Below, piece by piece: positions 26,515-34,968 of a stretch of 44,258 bases of DNA. Within the stretch, counting starts at the first letter, position 1; each line of letters begins with the position of its first letter. Made by a program: the position numbers and the translations under genes. The DNA is from an uncultured Ectothiorhodospiraceae bacterium (lineage in GTDB: Bacteria; Pseudomonadota; Gammaproteobacteria; S012-40). The stretch spans positions 1 to 44,258 of the forward strand of contig CALZHW010000012.1 of NCBI GenBank assembly GCA_945787125.1, written 5' to 3'. The notes beneath the pieces were generated by a model. It searched no databases. It was not told the origin of the DNA and saw only the letters and a list, made by a program, of their open reading frames with translations.

Positions 26515-28608
26515 TTAAAAGCGATAGGCGACGGATGCTGCAACAAAGTGCGCTGTGTAGGAATAACTTTCGCTTCCCAAATTCACTAACGATGAGTTTA
26601 CATCATACGTTAATTCATCAACATGCCAATCTGATTCGTCATAAATCTCCATGTAATAAGAGGCTTTAACCGTTAACGATTCGCTATACCGATAACGTGA
26701 GAATAGCTCGATGCTGTGTCGGTCCGATTCCAACTTGGGCACATCGGTGGTTGAGCTTGCGCCAGAAGATTTATTTTCTCCGGTAGAAATTGCCCAGGTA
26801 TAATCAATCCCCAAATCCAGCTTGTCGATGACCTCGTCCCAGTTTGCACCAATTCCCAGCACGGTAAAATTATCAACTGATTCTATTTTCCAGTTGGATG
26901 GCTCGGCACCCAGTGTATCGGACTTGATTCTTTCCTGACTTAAGAAGGCGTGTATTGACACATTTTCGCTTAACATAGTTGAAACGTCTAAACCGTAAGT
27001 GAAATCCTTGGCTTCGGCCAAACCAATTTTTGATTCAGTATAATCGTCAGCGGCATAGTTTAGATAAAAATCCAAATAAATATCACGTAAACCGGAATAA
27101 CCAAGGTTGGCGCCGAGTTGATATCTTTTGCGATCAGCCAGGTTGTATTTACGCATCAATGGATTTTGCGGAGATTCGATTGTGCTTAGAACTCTGTAAT
27201 CAGAGCCTGTGCGTTGCTCGTGACTTAGTTTTAGATTCATGTTTAACGTTTTGGATATGTTGATATAATTTTTATACCAATAATTATGATTTTTAGTCTT
27301 GGCGACTTCAGAATAAGTCCGTGATTGTTGGCGATATTCATAACCCGCATTGATTTTATAACGATTGGAAATACGATAATCCAGTGATGTATTAGCACCG
27401 TATTTACGGTAACCATAAGGCAAATTAGTTCGCGATTGCGTATTGTTAGAGGTGTCCAGAATAACGTAGTCATAGCGGTCACTGGGTGTTTTATTATCTT
27501 TACGATCCAGATAAAGATTGGCGTGCAAAACCAGGTTTTTCTTGATATCTATCGTGCCTCTCACATTTCCTTGCAAGGTATTTACCTGCCCATCCAAAGA
27601 GCTGCGCGGTAACGCAGGATTGGTTAAAGCTGAGTTTACCGTGTAATCTATAAAATCCTGATCTTGTAACATGCGCCCGGCGGCTATCTGACCTTTGAGT
27701 TTTAACCATTTAACCGGCCGCAATGCGCCGATCGCGTATAACTGATGGAATTGATTGTCTGGCGCCAAGGCGATTCGACCTTTATCGGTATCAACGGCTG
27801 AAGATGACGTATGGGGATTCTCCCAAGTCAAAGCGTCATTGGCATTTTTAAAAAACGAGCCCTTGTAACCTGCTTCAATTTGCAAAAACGTCGATTGATA
27901 CCCAAGACCCAGTTTGAGCAATTGCGTTGTTTGATCAATAGGTACCGGTAACATAACCGAGCGGGCACCGGCAAAACTGGGATAAACCGCCGCGCCCTGG
28001 TTTTTTAATCCAGTTTTATTCTCGATATTATAATCTAGGATAGCTTGCCATTTTGTGGTAATCACTTTATTCATACCGAGCGCAAAGCGCATCCTATCTT
28101 GTTCAATGTCGGTTGTCGCATTGCCGGTAGCCAGGCCCAAATCGGTAGAGTCGATGTCCGAAAACGGCGTCCTTAAATCATTAAATTGATAGCGGGATAG
28201 TTGATCATAGTTGAGATCAATTTCATAGTTACCATATTCACCGGTCGTCAGAGAAACCTCTCTTGAGGCATCGCCTAGATGGCGGGTCCAGAGAGTTAAG
28301 AATCTACCTTCATCGGATATCGCACTATAAGAACCATCTATTAACGGTATGATTGGATTGCCTGCTCTGCCATTGTATTCGTTGGCTTTCGCTTTATCAC
28401 TGCTATTGAAAGCAAGTCCGGCTTCAAGGGTTTTTTCCGCTTCATCCGGTTCCGGGCAGAATTTACAGGAATACTTTGCCCTGTCCGGCAACGGCTGGGT
28501 AAAAATATCCGCTTGCGAGGCAAAGCTACTGTTTGTATGCATGTATGCAACAAACGGTAACATCAATCCTATCAATAATTTTGTGTGAGACAATTTAGTG
28601 TGAAACAT
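26515..28608 (-). CDS. MtrB/PioB-type outer-membrane porin of an electron conduit
   Basis: A 697-residue outer-membrane beta-barrel expected to sheathe the decaheme cytochrome encoded just upstream. A signal-like N-terminus ends near SSFAS. A CxxC pair (C48, C51; YSCKFCPEPDE) follows, as is usual in MtrB/PioB proteins. The remainder alternates Tyr/Asn/Asp-rich amphipathic strands and ends VAASVAYRF, with a C-terminal Phe typical of barrels. The length is in the MtrB range (about 700). It is the last gene of the operon, 9 nt after the decaheme gene, and convergent to the next gene. The gene is called MtrB-like on CxxC, barrel pattern and neighbourhood; direction of electron flow is not defined by sequence. 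Confidence 0.9.
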   Translation of the reverse strand: MFHTKLSHTKLLIGLMLPFVAYMHTNSSFASQADIFTQPLPDRAKYSCKFCPEPDEAEKTLEAGLAFNSSDKAKANEYNGRAGNPIIPLIDGSYSAISDEGRFLTLWTRHLGDASREVSLTTGEYGNYEIDLNYDQLSRYQFNDLRTPFSDIDSTDLGLATGNATTDIEQDRMRFALGMNKVITTKWQAILDYNIENKTGLKNQGAAVYPSFAGARSVMLPVPIDQTTQLLKLGLGYQSTFLQIEAGYKGSFFKNANDALTWENPHTSSSAVDTDKGRIALAPDNQFHQLYAIGALRPVKWLKLKGQIAAGRMLQDQDFIDYTVNSALTNPALPRSSLDGQVNTLQGNVRGTIDIKKNLVLHANLYLDRKDNKTPSDRYDYVILDTSNNTQSRTNLPYGYRKYGANTSLDYRISNRYKINAGYEYRQQSRTYSEVAKTKNHNYWYKNYINISKTLNMNLKLSHEQRTGSDYRVLSTIESPQNPLMRKYNLADRKRYQLGANLGYSGLRDIYLDFYLNYAADDYTESKIGLAEAKDFTYGLDVSTMLSENVSIHAFLSQERIKSDTLGAEPSNWKIESVDNFTVLGIGANWDEVIDKLDLGIDYTWAISTGENKSSGASSTTDVPKLESDRHSIELFSRYRYSESLTVKASYYMEIYDESDWHVDELTYDVNSSLVNLGSESYSYTAHFVAASVAYRF

Positions 28609-28617
28609 TGTGCTACC

Positions 28618-29589
28618 CTATCGCATCAGTTTAACACCCGACGGGTGATTGGAACCGTGAATTGTAGAATGACAATTTAAACACGATTTATTCACGGTAA
28701 ATTTATTATTATTTCCCACAGCACCACCATCACGTAAGACATTAGCATGTAGATTATCTTGCGAATGACATTGCTGGCAAATGTAAGGTGTGGTTTTTTT
28801 CAATAACGCTCCATGATTAGAGCCATGCGGCGTATGACACAAAGTACAATCCTCAGTGACTGGTGCATGTTCCCATAAAAATGGGCCGCGTTTTTCTGCA
28901 TGACATTCATAACATTTTTCATTTTTATTGGCGGCATCTATCAGTTTTTCACCCATGGCATCGTGTGTGTTGTGACAATTGCTACATTTCATTTCACCAA
29001 ACCGAACCGGATGACTGGAGCGGCGCTGAAATTCACTGCGTTTTTGTTGGTGACACTTAAAACACACGGTAGCTTGTTCATGTTTGATAAACAGCGGATC
29101 TTTTGCCATATGAATGCGATGACAATTGGCGCACGCTAAATCACCTTGCTGGTGAGCACTGCCTTGCCAGCCAATGCGTGCGTGGGTCTTATGACAGTCC
29201 AGGCAAATTTTATTTTGCACGTCTGCAGGTGCGTGAGATTTTTCACCGAAGTTCATAATTGGCGCTTTAATTTGCCCTTGGCGCGTTTTCTTTGAATGAT
29301 TACCACCGGGACCGTGGCAGGCTTCACACTGCAAGCCTGCCATTGGTGAGCGTTTGTCATTCAGCTGACCATGTTTGCTCTTGAATATCGGCATTATTGG
29401 ATACTCATTGTCTTCATCATGACACTTTAAGCAGCGATCAGCACCCAGTTCGGTGTAAGGAGCATCAATCTGTTTTGTCCAGTCAGTATCAACCTCTTCT
29501 TTATCTCCGGCATCTTCAGCGTAAACGGTTGCCAAAGGTATCGTCAGAAGAAACAATGTTATTGCTAATAATCTAATAAACATAGCCAT
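28618..29589 (-). CDS. Decaheme c-type cytochrome, MtrA/DmsE family
   Basis: A 323-residue periplasmic cytochrome that carries electrons into the MtrB-like pore. After a signal peptide (LLAITLFLLTIPLATVYA) there are ten CxxCH haem sites by count: CLKCH, CEACH, CLDCH, CANCH, CFKCH, CSNCH, CYECH, CTLCH, CQQCH and CLNCH. Ten haems, length and the MtrB-like neighbour match MtrA, DmsE and PioA. The start ATG shares one base with the stop of the flavoprotein gene (TAATG), so translation is coupled. Either M1 or M3 could be the true start. No surface decaheme MtrC/OmcA gene is adjacent. Confidence 0.95.
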   Translation of the reverse strand: MAMFIRLLAITLFLLTIPLATVYAEDAGDKEEVDTDWTKQIDAPYTELGADRCLKCHDEDNEYPIMPIFKSKHGQLNDKRSPMAGLQCEACHGPGGNHSKKTRQGQIKAPIMNFGEKSHAPADVQNKICLDCHKTHARIGWQGSAHQQGDLACANCHRIHMAKDPLFIKHEQATVCFKCHQQKRSEFQRRSSHPVRFGEMKCSNCHNTHDAMGEKLIDAANKNEKCYECHAEKRGPFLWEHAPVTEDCTLCHTPHGSNHGALLKKTTPYICQQCHSQDNLHANVLRDGGAVGNNNKFTVNKSCLNCHSTIHGSNHPSGVKLMR

Positions 29590-30836
29590 TACTCAAACAT
29601 TTCATGCGTGATATTGTTAAACCAACTTTGTGCATACAAGACTTCGCGTTGCGCTTGTTTTTCCGGATCATCAATTTGACTTTTTCCATGGGAAACCTGA
29701 GTGAGTTTCTTATCTGCGTTAATGCGAAACACTTTAGTTCTAAATATTGCGTAGTCGTTATTCAGGATGGCGTATTCTGAATCGATTAACGGGGGTAAAT
29801 CCTGCAAAACGGCTTTTCCTTGCACTTGATTCGCCATGGCTATGGCACAAAGTTTAGCTTGCGCATTGGCTGATTGGGCTGTTTTGCTTAAACCTAATTC
29901 GGGGGTAATGGCATCACCAATGACATAAATACCTTTCTGTTTTGAGCTTTCAAAGGTTCCTGCAGCCACCGGGCACCATCCCGATGAATCAGTTAAACCC
30001 GCTTTCAATGCTAAGTTGCCTGCACGATTAGCTGCCACCACGTTAAGTAAATTAGCTGTCGTATTGCCCGCACTTGTTGTGACGCTATTTCCTGCGATCG
30101 CACTTACGTTAGTTTGCCATTGGGCTTCAATCATACCGGGGTAATGTTGTTGCCAATAGTCTTCAAAGATTGCCAAATCTTCAGTTTTTGCATTACCATT
30201 CAGCAAGATAATTTTGGCTTTTTTATTATTTATTGAAAAATAAGCGGCCATTTGACTAACGCGTTCAAACGGCGCCCATGGTCCGCTAATTGATCCTGCT
30301 GGCGTGGCGACTATCACAACCCCGCCCGGTTTCAATCCGGCGACTTTAGGCGCCAATTGTTGCACTTGCTCGCCAGCAGTCCAGCTATGCAGAGTATTTT
30401 CATCAAACCCCTGTATCGCAGCATTGTCGAAACCAATGCCTTGAGCTAATACCAAGCGATCATAAGGCAAGGATTTTCCGCCTGCTAGGGCAATATTTTT
30501 ACTGACGGGATCAATTTCCGTTACGGTATCGTGAATGACTTTAATGCCGTTCTTTTGCAGGGTTTGATAGCCATATTGAGTTGCATTTATATCCAGTAAA
30601 CCATTGATTAAATGGTTACTTACAAAGGCGGGCTGATATGTTTTGTTCTTTTCAACAATGGTGATTTCAGCGGCTGGCAAAATCTTTTTAAGATATTTTG
30701 CGAATATGGTGCCTGCTGCGCCTCCACCAACTATGATGATTCGATTCTCAGCTGCCCACGCCAGGCGTGTGACACCCATCAACGGCAAAGCGCTACTGAT
30801 CCCCAGTAATTTTAATAAAGAACGTCGTGATAGCAT
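29589..30836 (-). CDS. FccB-like Tat-exported flavoprotein lacking the catalytic cysteines
   Basis: A 415-residue flavoprotein homologous to the FccB subunit of flavocytochrome c sulfide dehydrogenase. A Tat signal (SRRSLLK, R4-R5) precedes the FAD-binding IIIVGGGAAGT. Family-wide segments GWCPV, TFESS, YVIGDA and the C-terminal SWFNNITHEMFE are retained. By comparison with remembered FccB sequences, both cysteines of the redox disulfide are gone: the CPPGPYER site reads ISGPWAPFER, and the NTCYSIL site reads DSEYAIL. The only Cys residues are in GWCPV and AKLCAIA. Sulfide oxidation through the usual disulfide is therefore unlikely. It follows a diheme cytochrome gene, as fccB follows fccA, but with a 179-nt palindromic element between. 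Confidence 0.88.
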   Translation of the reverse strand: MLSRRSLLKLLGISSALPLMGVTRLAWAAENRIIIVGGGAAGTIFAKYLKKILPAAEITIVEKNKTYQPAFVSNHLINGLLDINATQYGYQTLQKNGIKVIHDTVTEIDPVSKNIALAGGKSLPYDRLVLAQGIGFDNAAIQGFDENTLHSWTAGEQVQQLAPKVAGLKPGGVVIVATPAGSISGPWAPFERVSQMAAYFSINNKKAKIILLNGNAKTEDLAIFEDYWQQHYPGMIEAQWQTNVSAIAGNSVTTSAGNTTANLLNVVAANRAGNLALKAGLTDSSGWCPVAAGTFESSKQKGIYVIGDAITPELGLSKTAQSANAQAKLCAIAMANQVQGKAVLQDLPPLIDSEYAILNNDYAIFRTKVFRINADKKLTQVSHGKSQIDDPEKQAQREVLYAQSWFNNITHEMFE

Positions 30837-30852
30837 AAGTGTTAACTCGCTT

Positions 30853-31031
30853 GGGAACGTGTATGAAAAAAATTGGACATATGACGCTCAAATTTAGTCT
30901 GTATTGGCACGTTCTGAAATCTCAAAAGTGCAGGAATAGTCGTTCTATTTCGAGCTTTTTTGATTTTAGAACGTACCAAAACGGGCTGAAGATGAGATGT
31001 AAGATTTCCAATTTTTTTCATACACGTTCCC
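30853..31031. repeat. 179-nt palindromic element with 25-bp perfect terminal inverted repeats
   Basis: Termini 30853-30877 and 31007-31031 are perfectly complementary over 25 nt (starting GGGAACGTGTATG). Complementarity continues inward with mismatches (TTGGCACGTTCTGAAATC against a near match) to a central GGAATAG/CTATTTC hairpin, so the whole unit can fold on itself. The right end reaches the stop codon of the diheme cytochrome gene. It looks like a MITE-type insertion, with no coding capacity seen. Confidence 0.85.
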
Positions 31032-31690
31032 TATTGTTGGCTTGAATAGTATTCAATAAGTTGGGTAATGCTTTCTTCACCCTTTTTATCCAGCATGCTT
31101 TTCAGCTTGGTGTTCATTTTTTTATGGATGCCGCGATCGCCGGATTGATAATCTTGCATGGTGAATGTTAAATAGTTTCGCCACTGGCCAACCAGCATAC
31201 CAACATCATCTGCGGTGCTCGCGCCTCCGTTTTCGTGGCATTTATCACAATACTTTTTGTGTAGCTTTTTTCCAGCCGCTGCTAATTTCTCATCAAACTG
31301 TTGGTTTAATTTTTCAAGCGGCAATTCGCTAAAATATTTAGCAATAGCCTTTATTTCATCCGGGCTCAATGCACTAGCGACATTGTTCATGGTTGAGGGG
31401 AAACGTTCATATATACCCACATCGGCTAAATCCGGATTGTTATCGATAACATCCAGGGCTTTTTCGAGATCATCGGTATATTTATACGCTAACATCACAC
31501 CAACGATATAATTATAAGAAAGTCCGGCAATCACCGGTGTTGCTGGCCCTTGACTGGCGCCTGCATTGCCATGGCATGATAAACAAGACCATGCGAGTCG
31601 TTCACCTAAATCTTTATTGTCTGCTACTACAGTGGATGCACACGTTAGCAGAAGTAAAATGATCATTACTTTGAAACAGGCTTTATTCAT
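31031..31690 (-). CDS. Diheme cytochrome c (c4/FccA-like)
   Basis: A periplasmic cytochrome of about 219 residues from the ATG at 31690. A signal peptide (MNKACFKVMIILLLLTCASTVVA) precedes two cytochrome-c domains, with CLSCHGNAG (domain 1) and CDKCHENGG (domain 2) as haem sites. The pattern ends with an axial-Met-type region in domain 1 (FPSTMNNVASALSPDEIKAIAKYFSELP). The arrangement matches c4-type cytochromes and the FccA subunit. The frame is open to a GTG 12 nt upstream, but the ATG gives the standard signal peptide and has GAGGAG ahead of it. It lies 26 nt from the tetraheme gene. Likely job: carry electrons between flavoprotein and the MtrA-type cytochrome or quinone side. Confidence 0.88.
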   Translation of the reverse strand: MNKACFKVMIILLLLTCASTVVADNKDLGERLAWSCLSCHGNAGASQGPATPVIAGLSYNYIVGVMLAYKYTDDLEKALDVIDNNPDLADVGIYERFPSTMNNVASALSPDEIKAIAKYFSELPLEKLNQQFDEKLAAAGKKLHKKYCDKCHENGGASTADDVGMLVGQWRNYLTFTMQDYQSGDRGIHKKMNTKLKSMLDKKGEESITQLIEYYSSQQ

Positions 31691-31716
31691 GTCGCAATTC
31701 ACTCCTCACTCTTCAC

Positions 31717-32271
31717 TCACATTGGTTCATCCTGATCTTCCGGTTCCTCGGGCTCTTCCGGTTCATCAGGCTCTTCATGGGCAATGCCGCGATGACAATC
31801 TATACAGGTTTTACCCTCAGCTTCTGCGGTTGCGTGTTTTTTGCGTGCCATTTTGTCCTGTTCTTCCAGGTTCATTGTACTAAAATCATGGCAACTGCGG
31901 CATTCGCGTGAGTCTGTGGCTGCCATTTTTCGCCATACTCGATTGGCCATGACCCAGCGCTGCTGATTATATTTTTCTTCGCTGTCGATTGTGCCTAACA
32001 TTTCATGATAAACATCTTTTGCTGCCATCAGTTTTGCCCATAACTTAGGCCCGTAATCTTTTGGAACGTGACAATCCGCGCAAACAGCTTGTACGCCTGA
32101 GGCATTTTTGAAATGCACTGTCTCTTTGTATTCTTCGTAAGGAACCTCCATGGAGTGGCACGATACGCAAAAATCTAATTCGTTGGTGGCGTGCAGAACT
32201 TTGTTAAAACCACCAAGCAGCAATGCACCCAGCAGTAATGTTGTAATAACGATAGAAATTACAATTTTCAT
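31717..32271 (-). CDS. NapC/NirT-family tetraheme cytochrome (CymA-like)
   Basis: A 184-residue inner-membrane quinol dehydrogenase candidate. A single N-terminal transmembrane anchor (VISIVITTLLLGALLLGGF) leads to four CxxCH sites: CVSCHSME, CADCHVPK, CRSCHDFS and CIDCHRGI. Family features SMEVPYEEYKETVH and GPKLWAKLMAAKDVYHEMLG are present. The C-terminus has a highly acidic Glu/Pro/Asp tail (EEPDEPEEPEEPEDQDEPM), which is unusual and could dock a basic partner. It passes electrons between the quinone pool and periplasmic cytochromes, as CymA does for Mtr systems. It starts 89 nt after the triheme lipoprotein stop, across a strong hairpin, and 26 nt before the diheme gene. Confidence 0.94.
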   Translation of the reverse strand: MKIVISIVITTLLLGALLLGGFNKVLHATNELDFCVSCHSMEVPYEEYKETVHFKNASGVQAVCADCHVPKDYGPKLWAKLMAAKDVYHEMLGTIDSEEKYNQQRWVMANRVWRKMAATDSRECRSCHDFSTMNLEEQDKMARKKHATAEAEGKTCIDCHRGIAHEEPDEPEEPEEPEDQDEPM

Positions 32272-32315
32272 GAAAGTTTATTATATGCTCGATATTGAAT
32301 GTGCTTTATACCAAT

Positions 32316-32344
32316 GAAATAGCCTGATCAGATCAGGCTATTTC
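32316..32344. terminator. 13-bp perfect hairpin between triheme lipoprotein and NapC-like genes
   Basis: GAAATAGCCTGAT, loop CAG, then the exact complement: a 13-bp stem. It is in the 89-nt intergenic space of an otherwise tight operon. No T-run follows on the minus strand (the next bases read ATTGG), so it may be a weak terminator, a processing site or a 3'-end stabiliser that sets the ratio of upstream to downstream products. Confidence 0.6.
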
Positions 32345-32360
32345 AGCATATAAAGTTGGA

Positions 32361-34424
32361 CTATTGAGTTGCTGTCAAGCTAGAGAAGAAGCCTGCAAGA
32401 TTATTGATCTCTTGTTGGGTGAGGTTTTTCTCACCATTAGTATTATCCATAATAGTGCTGATATCACTGAGATCTGCTGTCATCGCGAAATGTGAAAAGC
32501 GTAAGTTTGGTACTGGCTGGTTTTCACCGCACGTTTCATCATCGCCCACTGCTGCAGTACCACTCAGGCCATCTCCGAAACATCGAAAACTCAGGTCTTC
32601 TCCTGCGTCATCAATATCCGCTGCATCAGATACACTGAGTGCTGTTGCACTGGCTGAGTGGCAACCGTCACAATTGGCATAATAAAAAGCCTCGCCAGCT
32701 GCCACATCTGCAACACCGTTATTGCCTATTGCATTGGTTGCCAATAGATTGGTGTCACCCGCTTGATACGCACTCAAATAAGCCATAATACCTGCGACAT
32801 CATGCGCCGCTGGATAACCTATACGATCACGGGTCATAACTGAGCCGGTTTCACCCCAGCGTGCCACATGAAACACACTCGCAAAATGCACTTGATCTAA
32901 GGTTTCATCATCATTCGACAAGTAACTGACAAAGTTATTGCCCAACCCGAATGGATTAAAGCCTGAGTTATTCGGTGCACCATGACAACGAAAACAATAG
33001 TCTGCATAAAATTCTTCGCCTTGTGAAATCTTACTAGAACTAGTGTCATTCAAAATATATTGACCATTTGCGAATGTCATCACTTGATCAGGTTTGCCAT
33101 CGGCGTAATTCAAGAATGCCGTTATTGCTTCAACTTGTTTGAGTGAAGGTACCGTATCATTATTCACACCTTGGTACGGGTTAGTTGAATTGGTTGCATC
33201 TGCTGCGGCGGTGCGAGAAAAGTCTGGGTGTTTGTCGCTAAAATGAATGCTATCGGTATCTGTCGCATCAATAGCGGCAGTCCAACTAGCTGCCAAATCA
33301 GCAACGTTTGCACCTGTCAATGCTGTAGTCACATTGGCATACATTCTTCCGTTGCCAGCACCTTCTTGAGGGGCAAAATCTGTTCCAGCAACCGGGGTTG
33401 TTCGCGTCAATAAATTTGTGCCCGCGCTTGCTTCTGGGCGTTGAATAAAACTCGCAGAATCAGAACCGTTAGGATCAAACAAATTTAGTGTGCTTCGCTC
33501 ACGCATAGCAAAACTTCCTTCATCGCCCATCTGATCAAACCCATGACATTCTTTACAGCGTGCGAATCGAACAAATCCTCCGTGCTCATCACCAGTAGCG
33601 CTTTGTTGTCTTAAACGTGTTTGTGTACTGCCGTCTGTTAGTTCAAGTGTCAGGGTCGCTGGGTGGCGATCGTGATCAGCGCCATTATCTCGGTTGGTAA
33701 CTTTGCCATGCGCATGTGAGGAGTGATCTACCTCAGTTTTAGTGGGCACTGGCATTTCTCCAGACGCTTCAATCCAGTTATTATATAAAGATGCTCCCCA
33801 AGCGATTTGATACATATTGGCTATTTGTATGTTTGCCATACTGGTTAAGTCAATGTCCGAAGTTTCAAAGTTGAAATCATTGGCCAATTCTAACAATGCC
33901 TCTTGTAAATTCGGCACATCTGCACGTTCAGCAGCAGTCATTGCATTACTGATATCAGCAGCTTTCGAAAAGCCAGCTTCTTCAGCTATCTCCTGCAGTT
34001 TAGTATCAAAATCAGTAGCATCACCGTTCTCGACCATAGCAACTGCTAAGGTAGTAATCTCGTGCGCAGCAATAGCGGATTTGTTGTTTTTAACATAGGT
34101 CATTACAGTGTAAGTACCTGCTGAACCATCCACCGTCGCTTCCCCAGTGATTTTGACATAATTACCACCGGAACCAATAGCGTTCTCTGCCAGAGTGATT
34201 TTTTCTGTGCCTGCATCGTAGGTGTAAACAACAGGCGTATATGTACCAGAAGGTGAGTCTGACATTGTTACTGAAGTAATGCTGTCAAAGGCAGGATTAA
34301 TTGACGGCACAATAATGGCGGCACTGGAATCATCATCATCGCTTGAACTAGAGCAACCAACGATAAAACTGAGTAAAAGGAAAATGCCGAAGGTTTTTAA
34401 CGCAGATTTAGTGTGTGTTTTCAT
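32361..34424 (-). CDS. Triheme c-type cytochrome lipoprotein
   Basis: A large (about 687-residue) lipoprotein that opens the electron-transfer operon. The ATG at 34424 gives a lipobox signal LLLSFIVGC-SSS with the acylated Cys at about position 24, and a GGAG lies upstream. The frame is open to an ATG 75 nt further up, but that would bury the signal. The lipidated Cys is followed by a Ser/Asp linker (SSSSDDDDSS). The body is Asp/Thr/Ala-rich and has three haem motifs in the C-terminal half: CKECHGFD, CFRCHGAP and CDGCHSAS. Residues near HSSHAHGK and DHDRHPA could bind metal. Not matched to a named family. Position suggests an outer-membrane or surface component replacing MtrC; this is inference. 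Confidence 0.82.
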   Translation of the reverse strand: MKTHTKSALKTFGIFLLLSFIVGCSSSSDDDDSSAAIIVPSINPAFDSITSVTMSDSPSGTYTPVVYTYDAGTEKITLAENAIGSGGNYVKITGEATVDGSAGTYTVMTYVKNNKSAIAAHEITTLAVAMVENGDATDFDTKLQEIAEEAGFSKAADISNAMTAAERADVPNLQEALLELANDFNFETSDIDLTSMANIQIANMYQIAWGASLYNNWIEASGEMPVPTKTEVDHSSHAHGKVTNRDNGADHDRHPATLTLELTDGSTQTRLRQQSATGDEHGGFVRFARCKECHGFDQMGDEGSFAMRERSTLNLFDPNGSDSASFIQRPEASAGTNLLTRTTPVAGTDFAPQEGAGNGRMYANVTTALTGANVADLAASWTAAIDATDTDSIHFSDKHPDFSRTAAADATNSTNPYQGVNNDTVPSLKQVEAITAFLNYADGKPDQVMTFANGQYILNDTSSSKISQGEEFYADYCFRCHGAPNNSGFNPFGLGNNFVSYLSNDDETLDQVHFASVFHVARWGETGSVMTRDRIGYPAAHDVAGIMAYLSAYQAGDTNLLATNAIGNNGVADVAAGEAFYYANCDGCHSASATALSVSDAADIDDAGEDLSFRCFGDGLSGTAAVGDDETCGENQPVPNLRFSHFAMTADLSDISTIMDNTNGEKNLTQQEINNLAGFFSSLTATQ

Positions 34425-34644: not shown

Positions 34645-34968
34645 CTATAAAAATATCTCCAGCCAGTCATTGTTTTTGCGCCATTGATAGATCTTGATTG
34701 GCTCGCAATCATCAAAAAAATTATTTTGTATTTTCCCAGTCAATAGATCGAATACTGCACCGTGTGCTGAGCATCGAATAGTGCCATTGCTTACTTTGCC
34801 GGCCTGTAAAGATACGCCGAAATGTCCGCAGCGATCTTCGATAATGAATATGTTTTTTCCTTCTTTAATAATCAATAAATTCAATTCATTATAGACCATT
34901 GATAATGTAATATCTTTATTCAAATCACTCAGTGCCAGCAATGGTATGGGCGTCTTAAATTTCGTCAT
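34645..34968 (-). CDS. Small Rieske-type [2Fe-2S] protein
   Basis: A 107-residue cytoplasmic protein of the Rieske ferredoxin type. The two cluster motifs are C-G-H (EDRCGHFGVSL) and C-x-x-H (RCSAHGAVFDLLTG), which supply two Cys and two His ligands. No signal peptide or membrane segment is seen. It overlaps the 3' end of greB by 14 nt, with its ATG inside the last codons of greB, so the two are translated from one mRNA. Related small Rieske proteins serve as electron carriers or oxygenase partners; no oxygenase is nearby. A different use within the neighbouring electron-transfer locus is possible but unproven, since that operon is in the next transcription unit. Confidence 0.86.
   Translation of the reverse strand: MTKFKTPIPLLALSDLNKDITLSMVYNELNLLIIKEGKNIFIIEDRCGHFGVSLQAGKVSNGTIRCSAHGAVFDLLTGKIQNNFFDDCEPIKIYQWRKNNDWLEIFL

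Follow-up and report, generated by a model that had tools for sequence, protein, structure and literature searches.

How inner-membrane quinone proteins are linked across the periplasm to outer-membrane conduits is the least settled question in extracellular electron transfer. In the flavocytochrome c sulfide dehydrogenase (FCSD) of A. vinosum, a periplasmic enzyme of sulfur metabolism, the flavoprotein FccB binds its FAD covalently through Cys42 and carries Cys161 and Cys337 as a catalytic disulfide (PMC3504083); for SQR, a passage in the same article cites work in which the counterpart cysteines are essential and serine in place of either abolishes activity. Here we describe a six-gene operon of an uncultured Ectothiorhodospiraceae bacterium that joins an FCSD-type flavoprotein and its dihaem partner to an MtrA/MtrB conduit, together with a NapC/CymA-like cytochrome and a trihaem lipoprotein. 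The stretch analyzed, hereafter the window, is the entire contig CALZHW010000012.1 (44,258 nt) of a host genome of 4.15 Mb in 321 contigs. A sequence-only reading of this DNA had recognized the six minus-strand genes and their families, and all six open reading frames are present with family matches far above chance; its interpretation as a whole is partly supported, as set out below. The cluster appears to be a new variant of the MtrAB-type extracellular electron systems, one with a repurposed, thiol-free FCSD flavocytochrome, and we found no description in the open-access literature of an FccB beside MtrAB or of an FCSD without its cysteines.

Compared with FccAB (1fcd and 3vrd), the flavoprotein shares the fold, the domain order, the FAD-motif residues, the equivalent of Trp391, and an adjacent dihaem partner, but it lacks Cys42, Cys161, and Cys337, its active-site motifs are rewritten, and it comes together with MtrAB and the trihaem lipoprotein. 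The MtrCAB/CymA/PdsA systems of Shewanella, Vibrio, and Aeromonas likewise have MtrA and MtrB homologs, an inner-membrane NapC-family cytochrome, and a dihaem periplasmic protein; the window cluster differs in having no MtrC, in the descent of its NapC and dihaem proteins, and in adding the FCSD-type flavoprotein and a lipoprotein with class-I type haem domains. MtoAB and PioAB with CymA or ImoA (Sideroxydans and Rhodopseudomonas) resemble it in pairing MtrAB homologs without MtrC in an autotrophic host, in Sideroxydans with a NapC-family partner, but they have the monohaem MtoD/PmcA or PioC where the window cluster has a flavocytochrome. We know of no surface lipoprotein in the Mto and Pio clusters.

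The same gene order, lipoprotein-NapC-dihaem-flavoprotein-MtrA-MtrB, recurs on contig CALZJE010000038.1 (L022/L025) of another uncultured Ectothiorhodospiraceae metagenome-assembled genome (MAG), which belongs to the same family as the window host but to another genus. The genes flanking the two clusters differ, and tblastn identities between them are 34% for the lipoprotein, 64% for NapC, 46% for the dihaem protein, 40% for the flavoprotein, 59% for MtrA, and 33% for MtrB. In a codon comparison of five genes (all except MtrB), the first two positions proved better conserved than the third, with 52/64/34% conservation at positions 1/2/3 for the flavoprotein. The cluster is carried by 2 of the 13 genomes of the order, and no third operon of the same type was found in these 13 genomes or in the class and phylum samples, the next-best match scoring 379 bits against 806 to 818 bits; homologs on plasmids had ∼36% identity or less among the matches listed. 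Because the order is kept in a second genus while so few genomes carry it, the cluster is a real unit, though rare and patchy, and the gene-order check proposed in the sequence-only reading came out in its favor. A separate locus elsewhere in the class (L139:6432-11668), with the consecutive genes MtrA-MtrB-FccA-FccB and an FccB that has kept all its cysteines, is an independent union of an FCSD with MtrAB. It further supports the earlier proposal of a gene unit that connects a flavin protein with an MtrAB conduit.

Judged by its sequence and predicted structure, the flavoprotein belongs to the FCSDs in ancestry and fold, but we conclude that it does not act as a sulfide dehydrogenase in the known way. 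The FCSD domains are all present (Pyr_redox_2, FCSD central, and FCSD flavin-binding), its solved relatives are FCSDs, and the AlphaFold2 (AF2) model (pLDDT 80) matches 3vrd and 1fcd with a TM of 0.86. At the sites of Cys42, Cys161, and Cys337, however, the window protein has Ala, Gly, and Glu and the L022 protein Gly, Gly, and Glu, such that the replacements of the redox pair (Gly185 and Glu354 in window numbering) are common to both operons. Both also share nearby changes (Arg184 to Ser, Gly188 to Ala, Asn352 to Asp, and a one-residue insertion at 311), with the motif RCPPG rewritten to SGPxA and NTC to DxE. The FAD-motif residues G37, G39, G42, E62, G307, and D308 are retained, as are the Glu of the YER motif and W405, the equivalent of Trp391, which reportedly was proposed as the flavin-haem conduit with the 1994 FCSD structure. 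We aligned 97 rows comprising the window protein, two copies of the relative, and 94 other homologs (a few of them near-duplicates); 78 of the 94 have all three cysteines, and another 15, otherwise normal, are without the FAD-linking cysteine only, so that 93 keep the redox pair. Since all three functional cysteines are lost while nearly every other homolog keeps this pair, sulfide oxidation through known FccB chemistry is unlikely in the window protein, and the FccAB-type sulfide chemistry implied by the sequence-only reading is not borne out. The two cysteine-less flavoproteins form one clade (support 99) on a stem so long that their deeper placement is unsafe.

The sole exception among the 94 homologs, missing only the redox pair and keeping its FAD-linking cysteine, is encoded in the gammaproteobacterium HyVt-540 (L051:6024-9914), where the row reads Cyc2-like cytochrome-porin (387 aa), monohaem FccA, FccB-like protein, and NapC. 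Apart from Ala in place of Arg, the haem motif AVPSFAAKY...CSYCHNAWPQL of the Cyc2-like protein agrees with the Cyc2 motif published in PMC8406198. Since the L051 flavoprotein lies between Cyc2-like and FccA genes on one side and NapC on the other, both lineages without the redox pair adjoin outer-membrane conduit genes. The L051 cluster thus resembles that of the window in having a flavoprotein without redox cysteines, an FccA-type cytochrome, NapC, and a conduit-type gene, but it has a fused cytochrome-porin in place of MtrAB, a monohaem FccA, the FAD-linking cysteine, and an FccB of another branch. An association between loss of the redox pair and a conduit neighborhood (Fisher p 0.002 to 0.006, post hoc, against ∼30 long-flank loci) is suggestive only, because the flank criterion was chosen after looking.

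The periplasmic part of the operon has a traceable ancestry. The NapC-like protein has the NNT domain, four CxxCH motifs, and N-terminal anchor of the NapC/CymA family, and in a NapC tree it groups with L022 and with the NapC of the NapC-FccAB locus L072 (support 95/94), apart from the MtrAB-adjacent NapC proteins in L140, L141, L150, L153, and L155. The dihaem protein has two CxxCH motifs and, with a two-row profile, finds the FCSD haem subunit as its best solved match (E=1e-45, versus 1e-11 for cytochrome c4); an insertion of ∼22 residues is common to the L022 protein and otherwise only to NapC-linked FccA (L023, L056, L057, L061, L071, and L077). A tree of the dihaem proteins gave no resolved placement. 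Together, the NapC tree, the FccA insertion, and the FCSD haem subunit match indicate that the periplasmic part came from a NapC-FccA-FccB module, and the sequences point to such a module, not a CymA-PdsA set, having been joined to MtrAB and the lipoprotein. Modules of this type (L056, L061, L071, L072, L077, and L023) share the gene order, the FccA insertion (not in L072), and the closest NapC (L072), but they keep the FccB redox cysteines and have no adjoining MtrAB or lipoprotein. NapC adjoins FccAB in many loci of the sampled set, and NapC-FccA-FccB modules are widespread in Pseudomonadota (L056, L057, L061, L071, L072, L077, L023, and L046).

For both MtrA and MtrB the best solved relative is 6r2q, the MtrCAB complex of S. 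baltica, and MtrB carries an N-terminal CxxC (Cys48 and Cys51). The MtrCAB arrangement is present in part: the decahaem MtrA, the only MtrA in the host genome, is adjacent to the MtrB/PioB barrel, and a decahaem surface cytochrome of the MtrC/OmcA type was not found in the host genome (best match 19.4 bits versus a cut-off of 209). With MtrC missing, the role of outer terminal cytochrome falls most plausibly to the lipoprotein, whose surface exposure is putative. Its lipobox (Cys24, with Ser at +2) leads us to expect outer-membrane sorting, its CxxCH motifs lie at 290, 477, and 585 in three class-I type haem domains, and His399, Met530, and Met648, invariant across three homologs, are candidate sixth haem ligands; the predicted His/Met haems suggest a high potential. 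A distant homolog is located at a contig end in G104 (L116), a genome with MtrAB on another contig. Searches with the lipoprotein sequence recovered generic class-I cytochromes only, and its AF2 model has a pLDDT of 30. Elsewhere in the host genome, contig C40 (L117:492-7318) encodes a possible second outer-membrane conduit, with multihaem cytochromes, an NHL-repeat lipoprotein, and a 653-aa barrel-looking protein without a Pfam match.

Features of the six-gene operon in the window
Feature	Position	Strand	Basis
Trihaem c-type lipoprotein (Lip), 687 aa	32361..34424	-	Lipobox and 3 CxxCH; homologs in L022 and G104 (L116)
NapC/CymA-like membrane-anchored tetrahaem quinone-linked cytochrome, 184 aa	31717..32271	-	Cytochrom_NNT E=2e-66, 4 CxxCH
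FccA-type dihaem cytochrome, 223 aa	31031..31702	-	FCSD haem subunit match, insertion typical of NapC-linked FccA
MITE-like element, ~179 bp	30853..31031	.	Inverted repeats, between dihaem and flavoprotein genes
FCSD-fold flavoprotein, 415 aa, N-terminal RR motif	29589..30836	-	FCSD_central E=5.6e-20, AF2 fold match
MtrA/DmsE-family decahaem cytochrome, 323 aa	28618..29589	-	TIGR03508 E=2.3e-88, 6r2q_A E=4e-93, 10 CxxCH
MtrB/PioB outer-membrane barrel, 697 aa	26515..28608	-	PF11854 (MtrB_PioB) E=2.8e-137, 6r2q_B E=1e-67

The CxxCH motifs total 19, with 16 in the last five genes and 3 in the lipoprotein, which lowers the earlier count of at least 17 plus 3. From the MtrB end to the lipoprotein end the intergenic distances are 9, −1 (an overlap), 194, 14, and 89 nt; the small spacers noted in the sequence-only reading therefore describe the relative, where the gap between the dihaem and flavoprotein genes is 28 nt, but not the window, where the same gap of 194 nt is filled by a long inverted repeat resembling a miniature inverted-repeat transposable element (MITE). 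Its terminal inverted repeats are near-perfect (GGAACGTGTATGAAA...), its RNA is predicted to form a hairpin of −69.9 kcal/mol (z −11.1), and the host genome has ∼20 copies of ∼177 to 190 bp that are complete or almost so, mostly 84 to 94% identical and with TTA/TAA flanks at most copies examined, along with many fragments. The element sits between genes and interrupts none. Its presence may shift the balance between the transcript parts before and after it, and co-expression of the operon is therefore not to be assumed. Promoter and terminator scans of the window gave scores near or below the shuffle level, and no Rfam families or tRNAs were found in the window scan. A convergent gene lies downstream of the MtrB gene. 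Upstream of the lipoprotein gene by 220 nt, on the same strand, is a small gene for a Rieske [2Fe-2S] protein (34645-34968) that overlaps a GreA/GreB-like gene; this pairing with the operon is not kept beside that of the relative.

We judged the metabolism of the host from individual family searches, which identified form I RuBisCO, RbcS, and a CsoS2-like carboxysome scaffold, the gene content of an autotroph; no second FCSD homolog of strength was found in the host genome search. 'Ca. Siderophilus' (PMC10993476) was considered as a possible autotrophic relative. The cluster probably constitutes one trans-envelope electron path with the repurposed flavocytochrome as its periplasmic hub. Along this path, electrons would pass between the quinone pool and NapC at the inner membrane, between NapC and the FccA-type dihaem subunit, whose partner would presumably be the FCSD-fold flavoprotein, from or to MtrA inside the MtrB barrel, and finally to or from the trihaem lipoprotein, standing in for MtrC. 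Stripped of sulfide chemistry (no redox disulfide and no covalent FAD) and retaining the FAD-binding residues and the tryptophan of the flavin-haem route, the flavoprotein would probably still trade electrons with its dihaem partner, serving either as the site at which some small molecule delivers or takes up two electrons or as a flavin hub for electrons. NapC-family proteins may run in either direction (ImoA discussion in PMC13390432). With this reversibility, the autotrophy genes, and the Cyc2-like neighbor of the cysteine-less L051 protein, we lean slightly toward uptake from an extracellular donor in the direction of quinone and give release a lesser though appreciable chance.

Several points weigh against a single path of this kind. 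Only two such operons emerged from ∼1,200 partly overlapping genome searches, both from uncultured MAGs, and the genes on either side of the MITE may have become uncoupled by it. Binding of FAD without a covalent link is predicted, the lipoprotein could face the periplasm, and the canonical FccB in L139 indicates that an FCSD can stand beside MtrAB with its sulfide site intact. The preferred direction, moreover, draws on autotrophy and analogy, set against the usual role of CymA-type proteins as quinol oxidizers.

Among the alternatives, outward respiration survives best and is possible, though tentative: NapC would oxidize quinol, and the dihaem protein, in a PdsA-like role, would pass electrons through MtrAB and the lipoprotein to an acceptor outside the cell, such as a mineral, with the flavoprotein as a side input or store, as the unrelated Shewanella FccA is for CymA-MtrCAB. 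CymA-type and NapC proteins usually work in this sense. CymA, PdsA, and MtrAB also make up the architecture of the outward paths in Vibrio and Aeromonas (PMC8805035), and the NCBIfam PdsA profile (NF049874) gives the dihaem protein 112 bits; this score is nevertheless far below the cut-off of 330 and similar to those of other dihaem proteins, and we rejected PdsA as its identity, given also the insertion seen in NapC-linked FccA. The grouping of NapC and the dihaem protein with NapC-FccAB modules, the absence of an MtrC-type surface cytochrome, the high potential suggested for the lipoprotein, and the CO2 fixation genes of the host all speak against this account. That the flavoprotein oxidizes sulfide or polysulfide without a disulfide and exports the electrons through the dihaem subunit to MtrAB is improbable; the conserved FCSD fold and FccA partner would suit it, as would the canonical FccAB beside MtrAB in L139, but in both operons the redox and FAD-linking cysteines are gone and the surrounding motifs rewritten. 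At least as improbable is a dead flavoprotein that survives as a passenger or scaffold for the dihaem subunit, or a decaying, MITE-disrupted relic of a cluster, since the loss of every functional cysteine and the insertion within the operon are offset by reading frames that are intact in the two genomes, by codon constraint, by the conservation of Gly185 and Glu354 as new residues, by a retained FAD motif, and by the intergenic position of the element.

The spread of NapC-FccA-FccB modules suggests that FCSD may feed quinone via a NapC protein in many sulfur bacteria. More speculatively, and with considerable doubt, a thiol-free FCSD branch may on two or more occasions have become the flavin hub between an outer-membrane conduit (MtrAB here, a Cyc2-like cytochrome-porin in L051) and a NapC quinone protein, which would constitute a new kind of uptake path for extracellular electrons. 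Annotation pipelines that call the window gene fccB, a sulfide dehydrogenase, would assign to the host a sulfide oxidation for which the sequence gives no support. The operon is instead a compact, conserved set in which a sulfide enzyme minus its catalytic cysteines is still wired to haems, and it allows a clear test of the role of the flavin once the sulfur chemistry is gone.

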